A DNA stretch of 10,140 bases from Kiritimatiellales bacterium (GTDB taxonomy: Bacteria > Verrucomicrobiota > Kiritimatiellia > Kiritimatiellales > Tichowtungiaceae), in NCBI GenBank assembly GCA_028692515.1, contig JAQUXG010000024.1, positions 1 through 10,140 of the forward strand, read 5' to 3'. Positions 6,256 to 10,140 of this stretch are shown here, piece after piece. Both the position numbers and the translations under genes were made by a program. The notes below the pieces were generated by a model. That model made no database searches. It was not told where the DNA came from and was given only the letters and a program-made list of their open reading frames with translations. Within the stretch, counting starts at the first letter, position 1. Each line of letters opens with the position of its first letter.

Positions 6256-6735
6256 ATGGACGAACTGCTCAAACAGCTTAAAACCAACGCCAAAGAAAGT
6301 CCGGAAAACCTGGCTAAACTGCTCGGCATCACTGCGGCTGAGGTGAAAACCCGCATTGCCGACTACGAAAAGGCCGGCATCATTCAGGGCTACCAGGCGG
6401 TCATCAATGAAGACAAGCTCGACGGCGCACCCGTCACAGCCGCCATCGAAGTCCGTCTCACCGCCGAGCGCGAAGGCGGCTTCAACCGCATTGCCGAACG
6501 CATCAGCCGTTTTCCCGAAGTTCGTTCCGCCTTCCTCATGTCCGGTGGCTACGATCTGCTTCTCTTTGTCAGCGGAAAAACCCTTAACGAAGTAGCCAGC
6601 TTCGTCAGCGAAAAGCTCTCCACGCTTGGCGGCGTGGTCGGCACCGCCACTCACTTCATGCTCAAAACCTATAAGCGCAACGACGTGCTCATGCAGACGC
6701 CTGATGAAAACGAACGCCCCCAAATCTCTGCGTAG
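6256..6735 (+). CDS. Lrp/AsnC family transcriptional regulator
   Basis: A DNA-binding regulator that usually senses an amino acid, 159 residues. Residues 1-50 form the winged or plain helix-turn-helix (ENLAKLLGITAAEVKTRIADYEKAGII), followed by the family's GYQAVINEDKLDG linker. Residues 58-140 are the RAM ligand-binding domain, with a SGGYDLLLFV segment at 96-105 matching the family G-x-YD motif. GGGAG before ATG 6256 supports the start. Its last 32 bases overlap the aminotransferase gene, so the two are co-translated; the regulator probably controls this operon in response to the aminotransferase's substrate or product. The C-terminal tail after 140 (RNDVLMQTPDENERPQISA) is polar and may be shaped only by the overlap. 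Confidence 0.9.
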   Translation: MDELLKQLKTNAKESPENLAKLLGITAAEVKTRIADYEKAGIIQGYQAVINEDKLDGAPVTAAIEVRLTAEREGGFNRIAERISRFPEVRSAFLMSGGYDLLLFVSGKTLNEVASFVSEKLSTLGGVVGTATHFMLKTYKRNDVLMQTPDENERPQISA

Positions 6736-7888
6736 CCGCATCGCCGCTCACGTGCGCGACATCCCGCGCTCTGGCATCCGCGACTTCTTTGACATCGTCA
6801 GCACCCGCGACGACGTCATCAGTCTCGGCGTCGGCGAGCCCGACTTCGTCACGCCCTGGCACATTCGTGAAGCCGCCATCACCGCTCTGGAACAGGGTGT
6901 CACCAGTTACACCTCCAACCTCGGGCTGCTTGCCCTGCGCAAAGAAATCTCTGCCTACGTCCAGAAAAATACCGGTATTACGTATAACCCCGACAATGAA
7001 ATCCTCATCGCCGTCGGCGTCAGCGAAGCCATGGACCTCGCCGTTCGCGCCCTCATCGAACCTGGTGACGAAGTGCTCTATCACGAGCCCTGCTACGTCT
7101 CCTATAATCCCGTCATCACCTTTGCCCACGGGGTACCTGTTAAAGTTGAAACCTCGGCTGAAAACGGATTCAAACTCACACGCAAACAGCTCGAAGCCAA
7201 AGTCACCAAAAAAACCAAGCTTCTGATTTTGAACTTCCCCACCAACCCCACCGGGGCTGTTCTCTCGCAAAAAGAGACCGAAGAAATCGCCGCCTTCGCC
7301 ATCAAGCACGACCTCATCGTCCTCACCGACGAAATCTACGGCGAGCTCACCTACGATCAGCAGCACGTCAGCTTCATCTCCGTTCCCGGCATGAAAGAGC
7401 GAACCGTCTATTTGCACGGCTTCTCCAAAGCCTGGGCCATGACCGGCTTCCGCATGGGCTTCTCCTGCGCTCCGCCCGAGCTCACCGAAGCCATGATGAA
7501 AATCCATCAGTACACCATGCTCTGCGCTCCCATTCTCAGCCAGAAAGCCGCCCTCGAAGCGCTCAAAAATCCGGCCGCCGACATTGCCGAAATGCGCGAC
7601 TCCTACTGCGTCCGCCGCAACTACATGCACAGCGCCTTCCAGGAAATGGGCATCGACTGCTTCCTGCCCGGCGGCGCCTTCTACATGTTTCCAAGCATTG
7701 GAAAATTCGGCCTGTCGTCCTACGACTTCGCCATGAAGCTCCTCGAAGAGGAAAACGTCGCTGTTGTTCCCGGCACCGCCTTCGGCGCCTGCGGGCAGGG
7801 TAGCGTCCGCTGCTGCTACGCCACCGCTCTCGACGACATCAAAGAAGCCATGATCCGCATCGCCTGCTTTGTCAAAAAGCTCGGCTGA
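6704..7888 (+). CDS. PLP-dependent class I/II aminotransferase
   Basis: A cytoplasmic fold-type I aminotransferase, 394 residues. Visible features: LGVGEPDF at 41-48, the NFPTNPTG motif with Asn181, TDEIYGELTY with Asp209 (PLP pyridine nitrogen) and Tyr212, the Schiff-base lysine Lys242 in SKAWAMTGFR with Arg250, and Arg369 for the substrate carboxylate. The frame opens upstream at 6626, but ATG 6704 gives the family-like N-terminus (SLRSRIAAHVRDIPRSGI); it has no ribosome site and relies on coupling to the overlapping Lrp gene. The substrate is unclear: alanine, aspartate or aromatic amino acids are all possible in this subfamily. Codons favour C endings strongly, except the stretch at 7688-7704, which forms an inverted repeat. 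A diverged copy of its 3' end reappears at 8630-8689. Confidence 0.92.
   Translation: MKTNAPKSLRSRIAAHVRDIPRSGIRDFFDIVSTRDDVISLGVGEPDFVTPWHIREAAITALEQGVTSYTSNLGLLALRKEISAYVQKNTGITYNPDNEILIAVGVSEAMDLAVRALIEPGDEVLYHEPCYVSYNPVITFAHGVPVKVETSAENGFKLTRKQLEAKVTKKTKLLILNFPTNPTGAVLSQKETEEIAAFAIKHDLIVLTDEIYGELTYDQQHVSFISVPGMKERTVYLHGFSKAWAMTGFRMGFSCAPPELTEAMMKIHQYTMLCAPILSQKAALEALKNPAADIAEMRDSYCVRRNYMHSAFQEMGIDCFLPGGAFYMFPSIGKFGLSSYDFAMKLLEEENVAVVPGTAFGACGQGSVRCCYATALDDIKEAMIRIACFVKKLG
7688..7704. repeat. TTCCAA/TTGGAA inverted repeat inside the aminotransferase gene
   Basis: TTTCCAAGCATTGGAAA is a perfect 7-bp inverted repeat with loop GCA, encoding FPSIGK. It matches the intergenic hairpins at 7895, 7939 and 8713. 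The codons here (TTT, CCA, ATT, GGA) differ from the TTC, CCC, ATC and GGC usual in this gene. Confidence 0.5.
7826..7882 (+). repeat. Direct repeat copy A: 3' end of the aminotransferase gene
   Basis: These 57 bases encode ALDDIKEAMIRIACFVKKL and are repeated at 8630-8686 with 49 identical positions (hand count), including a perfect 25-base run (7829-7853 and 8633-8657). The copies are 804 bases apart and bracket the DUF5678-like/retropepsin module. Confidence 0.85.
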
Positions 7889-7894
7889 TCGCGA

Positions 7895-7957
7895 TTTTTC
7901 CAATGTTTGGAAAAAAATCTGAAAACCGGTCTCGCCGGTTCCAGGCATTGGAAAAAA
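7895..7957. repeat. Cluster of three hairpins after the aminotransferase gene
   Basis: Three adjacent inverted repeats: TTTTTCCAA/TTGGAAAAA with loop TGT (7895-7915), AACCGG/CCGGTT with loop TCTCG (7924-7940), and TTCCAG/TTGGAA with loop GCA (7939-7953). The first and last arms can also pair over a perfect 11 bases (TTTTTCCAATG 7895-7905 with CATTGGAAAAA 7946-7956), enclosing the middle hairpin. On the + strand no T-run follows, so it is not a textbook terminator, although it separates two genes. Confidence 0.6.
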
Positions 7958-7958
7958 G

Positions 7959-7987
7959 TTGTCTGTCTGCGGTGTGTGGCGTATTCT
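7959..7987 (+). promoter_or_regulatory. Candidate sigma-70-type promoter for the small module
   Basis: TTGTCT (7959-7964) and TATTCT (7982-7987) each match four of six consensus bases with the ideal 17-base spacer. Transcription would start near 7994, leaving a leader of about 14 bases before the start codon at 8008. Confidence 0.45.
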
Positions 7988-8007
7988 CCGGTCGAATTGA
8001 GGTTTTT

Positions 8008-8196
8008 ATGCCTGTTGTAACAATCAATCTGCCAAAACAGAAATGCCGGTTCCTCGCTCTGACGCCGGGAGCTCTCGGCAAAGTGGTCGCCTATGCCAAT
8101 GACCGGGCGACGCTCCTGAAAAAGGCTAAAAAGGCCGGTGTGGACAAGCCGGTCATCATGCCGGTTCTCGACCCCCGCTCGCGCTACATCTTTTAG
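8008..8196 (+). CDS. Small hypothetical protein, DUF5678-like
   Basis: A 62-residue protein of unknown function. The pattern resembles my recollection of DUF5678: a short strand (RFLALTPG), a GKVVAYANDRATLLKKAKKAG helix-bearing centre, and a final strand pair (DKPVIMPVLDPRSRYIF). It has no signal peptide or membrane segment and is probably cytoplasmic. The frame is open from 7903, but ATG 8008 is chosen: TGAGG (7998-8002) precedes it, and the upstream codons run through the hairpin cluster and promoter. Its stop is two bases before the start of the retropepsin gene, so the two are almost certainly co-expressed. That pairing suggests a shared role, such as regulator, partner or substrate of the protease; this is inference. 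Confidence 0.6.
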   Translation: MPVVTINLPKQKCRFLALTPGALGKVVAYANDRATLLKKAKKAGVDKPVIMPVLDPRSRYIF

Positions 8197-8198
8197 CC

Positions 8199-8657
8199 AT
8201 GCCGCGCGCCGAGTATCCATTCTACAGTTTTCAAACACCAACCGATGCCTGTCGCGTTTATTTGCCGATCCGCCTTTCCAATCCCAAGACCGGAAGTTCA
8301 ACAGATATCGAAATGGCGCTGGTGGATACGGGGGCGGATTCCTGCGTGATTCCAGGCAGTCTTGCCGGTGCGTTGGGACACAACCTGAAGCACAAAGCCA
8401 TTCGGCCTTCTCCGACTTTAGGAATTAACGGAACGCATGTGGATACCTATGGACACACCTTCCGGCTTGAGCTGCTTGGCCCGGATGCCGAAACGGTTGT
8501 CTGGAGCAATGACAGAACGGTGATCGACTGCATTGAAGCTGAGGTTCCGATTCTTCTCGGCACGCAGGACTTTCTGGCCAACTTTAAAATCACCATTGAT
8601 TACCCGGCGCAAAAAGTAGTGCTTCAGTGGCCCTCGACGACATCAAAGAAGCCATGA
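8199..8657 (+). CDS. Retropepsin-like aspartic protease (clan AA)
   Basis: A 152-residue single-domain aspartic protease resembling retroviral and Gag-polyprotein-type proteases. The catalytic motif is clear: MALVDTGADSCVIP at 39-52 with Asp43, after a strand with YLPIRLSNP. The second family element, ILLGTQDFLANFKITID at 118-134, matches the conserved late Leu-Gly motif. One active site per chain means it must dimerise. No signal peptide or membrane anchor is visible. It follows the DUF5678-like gene by two bases and has no ribosome site, so it depends on coupling. The last seven codons (P146 to P152) are read out of frame from the duplicated aminotransferase tail, so its C-terminus is a by-product of the junction. 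Base composition is G-rich here, unlike both neighbours. Confidence 0.82.
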   Translation: MPRAEYPFYSFQTPTDACRVYLPIRLSNPKTGSSTDIEMALVDTGADSCVIPGSLAGALGHNLKHKAIRPSPTLGINGTHVDTYGHTFRLELLGPDAETVVWSNDRTVIDCIEAEVPILLGTQDFLANFKITIDYPAQKVVLQWPSTTSKKP

Positions 8658-8689
8658 CCCGCATCGCCCGCTTCGTCTCCAAGCTGTAG
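8630..8689 (+). pseudogene. Remnant of an aminotransferase 3' end (direct repeat copy B)
   Basis: In one frame this stretch reads ALDDIKEAMTRIARFVSKL and then TAG, against ALDDIKEAMIRIACFVKKL in the intact gene. Nothing upstream of 8630 continues that frame as an aminotransferase; the retropepsin gene abuts it and runs into it in another frame. It is thus an orphan gene end. Differences include both silent and amino-acid changes, so the copies have been apart for some time or come from different aminotransferases. Confidence 0.8.
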
Positions 8690-8710
8690 GGCGGGGGCCG
8701 TGACCCCGCC
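8690..8710 (+). terminator. GC-rich hairpin after the repeated gene end
   Basis: GGCGGGG (8690-8696) and CCCCGCC (8704-8710) are perfect 7-base arms around GCCGTGA, directly after the TAG of the remnant. No T-run follows, so termination is possible but unproven. It may have been the original end of the aminotransferase operon. Confidence 0.4.
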
Positions 8711-8712
8711 GC

Positions 8713-9007: not shown

Positions 9008-10140
9008 ATGACAAAAATTACACGGGCGCTGTTGAGCGTCTCAGACAAAGCCGGAATCGTTGAATTTGCCAAAGCCCTCGTTGCGCGCGGCGTTGAACTG
9101 CTCTCCACCGGCGGAACCGCCAAAGCCCTGCGCGACGCGGGCATTGCCGTCAAAGACGTCTCCGAGTTCACCGGCTTCCCGGAAATGCTTGATGGTCGCG
9201 TCAAAACGCTCACCCCGCAAGTACACGCCGGACTGCTTCATCTGCGCGACAATGACGAGCATATGGCCACCATGAAGGCACACGGCCTTTTGCCGATCGA
9301 CCTCGTTTGCGTCAATCTTTACCCGTTTGAGGCCACCATCGCCAAGCCCGGGGTTTCATTGGCCGAAGCCATCGAGCAGATCGATATCGGCGGCCCGACC
9401 ATGATTCGCTCCGCTGCCAAAAATATGAAGTTTGTCACCGTCATCACCGACCCGTCCGATTACAACCGCGTGCTCGCATCCATGGATGCCAACGGCGGCA
9501 ACACCACCGAAGAACTCCGCTTCGAACTCGGCCAGAAAGTTTTTGCCCGCACCGCCGAATACAACGCCGCCATCGCCGGCTATCTCGCGGAACAGATGAA
9601 ATCCGCCGCGCCGCGCCCGTTCGTCAAAGCCGCCTCCAACGGTGTCGAACTGCGCTACGGCGAAAACTCGCACCAGAAGGCGTGGCTCTACACCGACGCG
9701 ACAGCCACCGAAGCCTGCATCGCCCACACCGACGTCCTGCACGGTAAAGAAATGAGCTACAACAACTATGTGGACGGCGAAGGCGCGCTCGAAGCGGTCA
9801 AAGAACTTTCCGGCAAGCCCGGCGTCGCGGTCATTAAGCACACCAACCCGTGCGGCTATGCCACCGGCGAAACGCTGGCCGAAGCCTTCGAAGCCGCTTG
9901 GAGCGGCGACCCTGTATCTGCTTTTGGTTCCGTGATTGCTGTCACCGAAAAAGTGGACATGGCCACCGCCGAGTTGCTGAAAGGCCGCTTTATCGAAGCG
10001 CTGATCGCACCAGACTTTGAGCCCGAAGCGCTCGAACTGCTCAAGGCCAAGAGCAAAAACATCCGCCTGCTAAAATTGCGCAAGCCGATGTCCAAAGCCG
10101 CGCCGCGCAAAATGGTTAAAGACATCAATGGCGGCATTCT
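9008..10140 (+). CDS. purH: Bifunctional purine biosynthesis protein PurH, 3' truncated by the window
   Basis: Catalyses the last two steps of IMP synthesis: formyl transfer to AICAR and closure of FAICAR to IMP. The window holds 377 codons of an expected 510-530, with no stop before the edge. The N-terminal IMP cyclohydrolase (MGS-like) domain shows STGGT at 33-37, DGRVKTLTPQVHAGLL at 62-77, NLYPF at 103-107 and IGGPTMIRSAAKN at 127-139. The AICAR transformylase domain begins near 200, with RYGENSHQ at 216-223 (usually RYGENPHQ), LHGKEMSYNNYVD at 244-256 and the catalytic KHTNPCG at 277-283 (Lys277, His278). AGGAG (8997-9001), six bases before ATG 9008, fixes the start. Codons are C-rich, like the Lrp-aminotransferase pair. 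Confidence 0.96.
   Translation, partial: MTKITRALLSVSDKAGIVEFAKALVARGVELLSTGGTAKALRDAGIAVKDVSEFTGFPEMLDGRVKTLTPQVHAGLLHLRDNDEHMATMKAHGLLPIDLVCVNLYPFEATIAKPGVSLAEAIEQIDIGGPTMIRSAAKNMKFVTVITDPSDYNRVLASMDANGGNTTEELRFELGQKVFARTAEYNAAIAGYLAEQMKSAAPRPFVKAASNGVELRYGENSHQKAWLYTDATATEACIAHTDVLHGKEMSYNNYVDGEGALEAVKELSGKPGVAVIKHTNPCGYATGETLAEAFEAAWSGDPVSAFGSVIAVTEKVDMATAELLKGRFIEALIAPDFEPEALELLKAKSKNIRLLKLRKPMSKAAPRKMVKDINGGI

Follow-up and report, generated by a model that had tools for sequence, protein, structure and literature searches.

Background

Absence is the usual argument for gene gain without a mobile element. In the minimal mobile elements of Neisseria, different genes lie between the same two conserved neighbours and are exchanged via these flanks, and to our knowledge a leftover gene end is no part of that idea. 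For the displacement of rhs C-terminal ends, the accessible part of the report proposes homologous recombination with circular intermediates (Jackson et al. 2009, PMC2935791), and sequential displacement in T6SS clusters is ascribed, in the portion available, to homology-facilitated illegitimate recombination (Kirchberger et al. 2017, PMC5361080). Insertion with long target duplication, as summarized in two later papers, is read as a duplication that accompanies insertion (Nobusato et al. 2000, via PMC3031569 and PMC1643837). The dimorphic small variable segments of E. coli are proposed, again in the accessible text, to arise through replacement by homology-assisted illegitimate recombination (PMC2884548).

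Here, we analyse a 10,140-nucleotide stretch of a Kiritimatiellales genome (hereafter the window), in which a DUF5678-like gene and a retropepsin-like gene stand between two copies of an aminotransferase 3' end. As in the minimal mobile elements of Neisseria, differing genes are found between two constant neighbours. The arrangement also resembles rhs displacement, in which an incoming gene end with its cargo displaces the resident 3' end, the orphan is kept downstream and repeat lengths vary, but there, as far as the available text goes, the gene is an rhs gene with unlike tips, whereas here orthologous ends of ordinary genes flank unrelated cargo (PMC2935791). The gene in the window is an aminotransferase, with no Rhs core and toxin tips, and by analogy the locus may work like rhs displacement without being one. 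With the T6SS arrays it would share one homologous anchor, one illegitimate join and a displaced piece downstream, whereas those arrays, in the accessible portion of the report, are limited to effector-immunity modules and come with no codon-position test (PMC5361080). This locus and long target duplications, as described in the available text, both have accessory genes flanked by direct target repeats of considerable and variable length, but the repeats here differ as orthologs of two lineages do (PMC3031569, PMC1643837), and, unlike our case, the E. coli dimorphic segments are, in the part of that paper available, mostly short replacements with no displaced gene ends (PMC2884548). In the literature consulted, mainly open-access titles and the first lines of abstracts in which the test was not sought by name, we met no codon-position test of the kind applied below and no work on this bacterial group.

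Methods

The window lies in G000, a 1.8-Mb draft genome of 288 contigs, and was compared with 13 other genomes of the genus, the aminotransferase being present in all; every genome found to carry a bracket (a duplicated gene end around accessory genes) is a draft. One relative, G007, was read nearly whole (2.217 Mb; 1,833 ORFs with 90 codons or more). In a first census, 14 ORF ends recurred downstream; a wider one gave 21, of which 16 passed the filters; curation yielded 13 genes. Rows dropped from the first census were 794 and 1394 (orphan in a related gene), 676 (doubtful ORF), 147 (repeat also the start of the next gene) and 1270 (28 bases), while row 708 was reassigned as the end of the opposite gene (RlmN2). 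From the wider census we dropped C1 93016 (70% identity), C7 21684 (68 bases away), and C2 2333 and C5 399749 (orphan inside a same-strand ORF); bPGM was retained despite a filter flag for an ORF over its orphan. Pairs at 5' ends, between genes or within genes were also dropped before the codon-position test, which covered 15 pairs, i.e., the 13 of G007 and the aminotransferase pairs of G000 and G002, the leuS pair of G011 being left out. The names leuS, murJ, hisF, aspC, rlmN, hypD, rsuA, HAD, bPGM, rSAM, HEAT and purH are putative and come from reading rather than family search. The control was 700 kb of E. coli K-12 (14 stretches, 623 ORFs, one strain).

A duplicated aminotransferase end around two genes

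The first-ranked direct repeat in the window pairs 7826-7881 with 8630-8685 (49/56 identical, 88%) at a spacing of 804; the original prediction, made from the letters of the stretch, had the repeat, its spacing and its perfect 25-base run right and miscounted the identity as 49 of 57. Copy B is a 3' end of the aminotransferase, as had been proposed, and the commoner end in the genus (58/59 to the gene end of G010, against 49/56 for copy A); the likeness to the orphan of G002 in ending and flank (Table 1) belongs to copy A and not to copy B. Across the 1,120-base interval between the aminotransferase and purH, the top local scores were 57 for the G010 tail and 42 for the gene's own tail, with at most 13.5 in 20 shuffles.

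Table 1. Features of the aminotransferase locus, in window positions
Feature	Position	Strand	Evidence
Class I/II aminotransferase gene (394 aa), own 3' end included	6704..7888	+	Pfam Aminotran_1_2, E 1.6e-67; orthologs in 14/14 genus genomes
Copy A, attached end (stop TGA)	7826..7888	+	Repeat search; ending and ~25 bases of flank like the G002 orphan
DUF5678-like gene, 62 aa	8008..8196	+	Pfam match below cut-off; G006 has homologous DNA (84%) at the corresponding site
Retropepsin-like gene	8199..8657	+	Asp_protease_2, E 2.1e-4, just under cut-off; native part to 8630 (Trp144)
Junction	8630..8630	.	Protease Trp codon ends on the base that opens copy B
Copy B, orphan end of the aminotransferase (stop TAG)	8630..8689	+	49/56 to copy A; 58/59 to the G010 gene end
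purH-like gene (start; continues beyond the window)	9008..10140	+	Downstream neighbour at module-free sites; name from our reading

Both genes predicted between the copies are present, with family matches that fall below the Pfam cut-offs (DUF5678: E 0.026, 14.8 bits against 23.2; protease: 22.4 bits against 24.3), and the ORFs of the 804-base module include no integrase, as originally stated. The retropepsin-like protein has 152 residues in the window and does take its tail out of frame from copy B, though this tail comprises eight residues (PSTTSKKP) and not seven, its stop lying at 8655-8657. Among nine database relatives of the protease, leaving aside one fragment, seven stop exactly at the residue corresponding to Trp144 and one runs five residues further; the native stop has therefore been lost. 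The protease remnant of G006 has a stop immediately past the matching Trp codon. Segment identities of G000 to its relatives give no sharp breakpoint at the junction. In the database, the exact 152-residue protein is a single member on a single contig, with no second contig for the chimeric protease, so the junction stands without independent assembly confirmation.

The hairpin that had been noted at 8690 exists and is a GC-rich dispersed repeat (8685-8711) directly behind copy B; it occurs 10 more times in G000 and also in most relatives, one copy standing behind the G007 aminotransferase orphan. Inverted repeats of the TTCCAA...TTGGAA type (91% complementary) lie at 7688-7709, inside the aminotransferase gene, and at 7892-7913, past its stop; similar hairpins stand behind gene ends in several relatives. 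Retropepsin was considered as a marker of mobility and set aside, as it occurs in just 2 of the 14 genus genomes, the second match being weak (G013; E 3e-4, 28% identity); a wider contig search added one distant retropepsin locus.

The aminotransferase site across the genus

A second aminotransferase 3' end lies downstream in three of the 14 genomes, with different cargo in each: at +804 in G000, at +619 in G007, where the cargo is a small unnamed gene and a ParE-like toxin gene (PF24732), and at +7438 in G002, where ORF reading, with no family search, suggests a sugar-use cluster. In all three, the orphan starts 54 to 66 bases ahead of the stop. Because five 2-base N runs lie between its two ends, G002 is the least secure of these cases.

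Downstream of the aminotransferase, purH was found in seven of the 14 genomes in the stretches examined. The check for an empty site in relatives, put forward with the original prediction, turned out positive: purH comes directly after the aminotransferase in G008 and G004, 117 and 220 positions past the start of the stop codon, respectively (in G004, its first 19 residues precede the contig end). At the same place G006 has a DUF5678-like gene (84% over 203 nt) and a single aminotransferase end in an assembly whose contig stops 947 nt past the aminotransferase. Module-bearing and module-free arrangements thus each exist apart. With an apparent frame shift near the DUF5678-like start and a protease cut to its last codons, the module seems to be decaying in G006.

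A search with the tail and its flank found no full aminotransferase tail elsewhere in the 14 genomes; the remaining matches were dispersed hairpin copies and weak hits of 34, 31 and 19-20 bases. The idea of the tail as an attachment site was dropped on this ground, full tails occurring at the aminotransferase locus only. Order-wide, the tail matched in 25 of 43 genomes and matched twice in four; the second match of G008 is the weak 34-base hit, and G000, G002 and G007 are the three genomes with two real tails. The aminotransferase stretches of 20 genomes likewise held a second tail in three, several of these stretches being short (275 to 1,209 nt downstream in G004, G036, G012, G006 and G008). 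When tails of lower similarity were sought in the corresponding intervals of the 14 genus genomes, only G000, G002 and G007 clearly exceeded shuffles, the best score of G006 (16.5, slightly over the 15.0 of 20 shuffles) being chance-like.

Duplicated gene ends in a related genome

The pattern recurs at many genes. In the 2.2 Mb of G007, the 3' ends of 13 curated genes recur on the far side of accessory genes; these ends belong to unrelated genes, are ~50 to 280 nt long, and differ by 4-20% between attached and orphan copy. The cargos are a TPR protein, AbiEi/AbiEii, ParE, an M50 peptidase, Fic, GH43, a DUF4143 ATPase (twice), an FAD oxidoreductase, a REP-associated transposase match under cut-off (45 vs 80 bits), a ParE-like toxin, a 202-residue protein with no Pfam match and a 343-residue protein. 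G011 has a bracket at leuS, ~81% identical over 151 nt, around a gene that reads as HicB-like. Two rows passed in E. coli K-12, both from one IS30 fragment pair, and a third, at a distance of 116 nt from the cynR ORF end, was under the 150-nt cut. The curated comparison (13/1833 in G007 vs 0/623; p=0.048) and the raw one (16 vs 2; p=0.27) leave weakly supported the view that duplicated ends are unusually frequent in G007.

Brackets occur at gene starts too. A 5'-end control in G007 gave 17 rows, some mirroring the 3'-end pairs, so the pattern is not strictly confined to 3' ends. At L149 (G007 C5, 10179-11345), a YhcG-type nuclease gene is bracketed, at the start of the gene that follows, by a perfect 56-base repeat.

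Codon positions of the differences

Over the 15 pairs, the differences between attached and orphan ends number 27/15/92 at codon positions 1/2/3, with 69% at third positions against 33% expected (p=5.5e-17). Fourteen pairs peak at position 3 and one ties, and leaving out any one pair keeps p at or below 5e-14; the orphans of the 15 pairs contain no in-frame stop and three gaps in total. A neutral simulation with doubled G+C mutability reached a third-position maximum of 66 against the 92 observed, and a mixture in which the gene also evolves, with an assumed third-position share of 46%, was rejected (p 1e-7). Decay of an orphan would ignore codons, but 92 of 134 differences are at third positions, and so duplication followed by decay fails; with it falls, for the class, the alternative first offered for this locus, a tandem duplication mostly deleted around a captured module. 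For the set, the two ends of a pair thus stem from two lineages and diverged as working orthologs before they were joined, as judged from these substitution patterns. The three aminotransferase pairs taken alone show no codon signal (4/4/7; 7/15 third, p 0.18), that of G000 contributing 2/2/3.

How the ends may have been joined

Junction overlaps, where definable, amount to about 1 base at 8630 in G000, so that there is no microhomology of note, and to 7 bases at aspC/HEAT in G007 (C2:175-178 kb), in keeping with the side of homology-facilitated illegitimate recombination that shares little sequence. On the side joined by homology, the ends behave as two-lineage orthologs for the set, with no breakpoint mapped in G000. 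At aspC/HEAT both orphan ends stand back to back in swapped order, and aspC and HEAT lie next to each other in convergent orientation in G008 and G004, two of the 10 relatives examined at this site. Such an order would be expected if a left allele P, with the M50 gene, had been joined to a right allele Q, with the TPR gene, at the 7 shared bases; allele joining is favoured here because separate insertions would give the other orphan order. At murJ, G004 has the same Fic cargo with a single murJ end, and G008, with no Fic start within 1.5 kb, has a flank that matches that of the orphan (96/116 with the tail) and not the attached one. The orphan flank of the G011 leuS bracket scores 40 against the leuS flank of G008, where 200 shuffles reach at most 15 and the attached flank 10. 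At the 13 sites where the two leuS ends of G007 differ, G013 sides with the attached end 12 times and never with the orphan, and hence the recipient side may differ between genes.

We therefore favour, with a probability of about 0.6, recombination between alleles that differed in cargo, one side joined by homology and the other illegitimately, with no integrase needed. Allele 1 would have read aminotransferase, DUF5678-like gene, retropepsin-like gene, and allele 2 aminotransferase and purH without the module. DNA of one allele would have entered a cell with the other and recombined homologously in the aminotransferase or on the purH side, its other end being joined illegitimately at 8630, which would leave the last 60 bases of allele 2 as an orphan behind the module of allele 1 and cost the protease its stop codon. 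Such a product would fit the anatomy of G000, with the module-bearing allele to the left of 8630 and the end of the second allele and purH to the right. Either homology-facilitated illegitimate recombination or the homologous integration of an illegitimately closed circle could be responsible, both giving the same product. The exchange may have run in either direction, and G000 presumably follows the rule of the set. The locus looks like the scar of a lopsided DNA exchange rather than a mobile element; the weak points of this reading are the missing breakpoint in G000, the lack of a codon signal in the aminotransferase pairs, a polarity that differs between genes, the likeness of copy A rather than copy B to the G002 orphan, a small E. 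coli control, and draft genomes.

Insertion with long target duplication, whereby 50-280 bases of target would be copied and the gene's own end later replaced by another strain's allele, is rather unlikely. Long direct repeats of the target do surround the cargo (49/56 over 56 nt in the window), the same bracket anatomy is reported, in the text available, around restriction-modification genes, and the toxin-antitoxin or Fic-type cargo in four of the 13 G007 brackets would suit such insertions. But the even spread over codon positions expected of a copied target is not seen over the 15 pairs (27/15/92; 2/2/3 in G000 alone), most loci would need a second event to account for the third-position excess, and target duplication does not yield the swapped orphan order at aspC/HEAT.

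It is improbable, too, that assembly set alleles of co-occurring strains in tandem, although all carriers are drafts, tandem alleles are one possible look of unresolved strain variants, and the N runs of G002 lie between its two ends. Against this count the absence of N from the window and from the 12 G007 intervals containing the 13 pairs, and the junction overlaps themselves: overlaps of 1 and 7 bases are too short for k-mer joining, and shared k-mers are scarce because the ends differ by 4-20%. A site-specific integrative element, as first suggested, with the aminotransferase 3' end as a restored attachment site and an integrase lost or acting from elsewhere, would suit the differing cargo at one site in three genomes and the near-constant orphan start, but is very improbable given the same pattern at 12 other G007 genes unlike in sequence and length, the 13 pairs being ends of 13 dissimilar genes with no common att sequence, their ortholog-like differences, the lack of a full aminotransferase end elsewhere in the 14 genomes, and no integrase seen by eye among the ORFs of the three aminotransferase cargos (those of G002 with gaps).

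Under one-sided joining, a gene-end bracket is positive evidence of gene gain, with the junction marked and a piece of the other allele kept. The codon-position count separates imported orthologs from duplicates, can be used on any genome, and would directly test the reading of such structures as long target duplications. It is conceivable, if on balance doubtful, that one-sided tandem joining of diverged alleles is a main route of accessory-gene gain in the genus, and that long target duplications (e.g., around restriction-modification genes) are the same thing, their orphaned ends from a second lineage marked by third-position differences.

Solo gene ends of ~90-107 nt, with no gene body just upstream, were seen for hisF (G004, L257), leuS (G004, L270) and a radical-SAM-like gene (G008, L282), and are perhaps further displaced ends.
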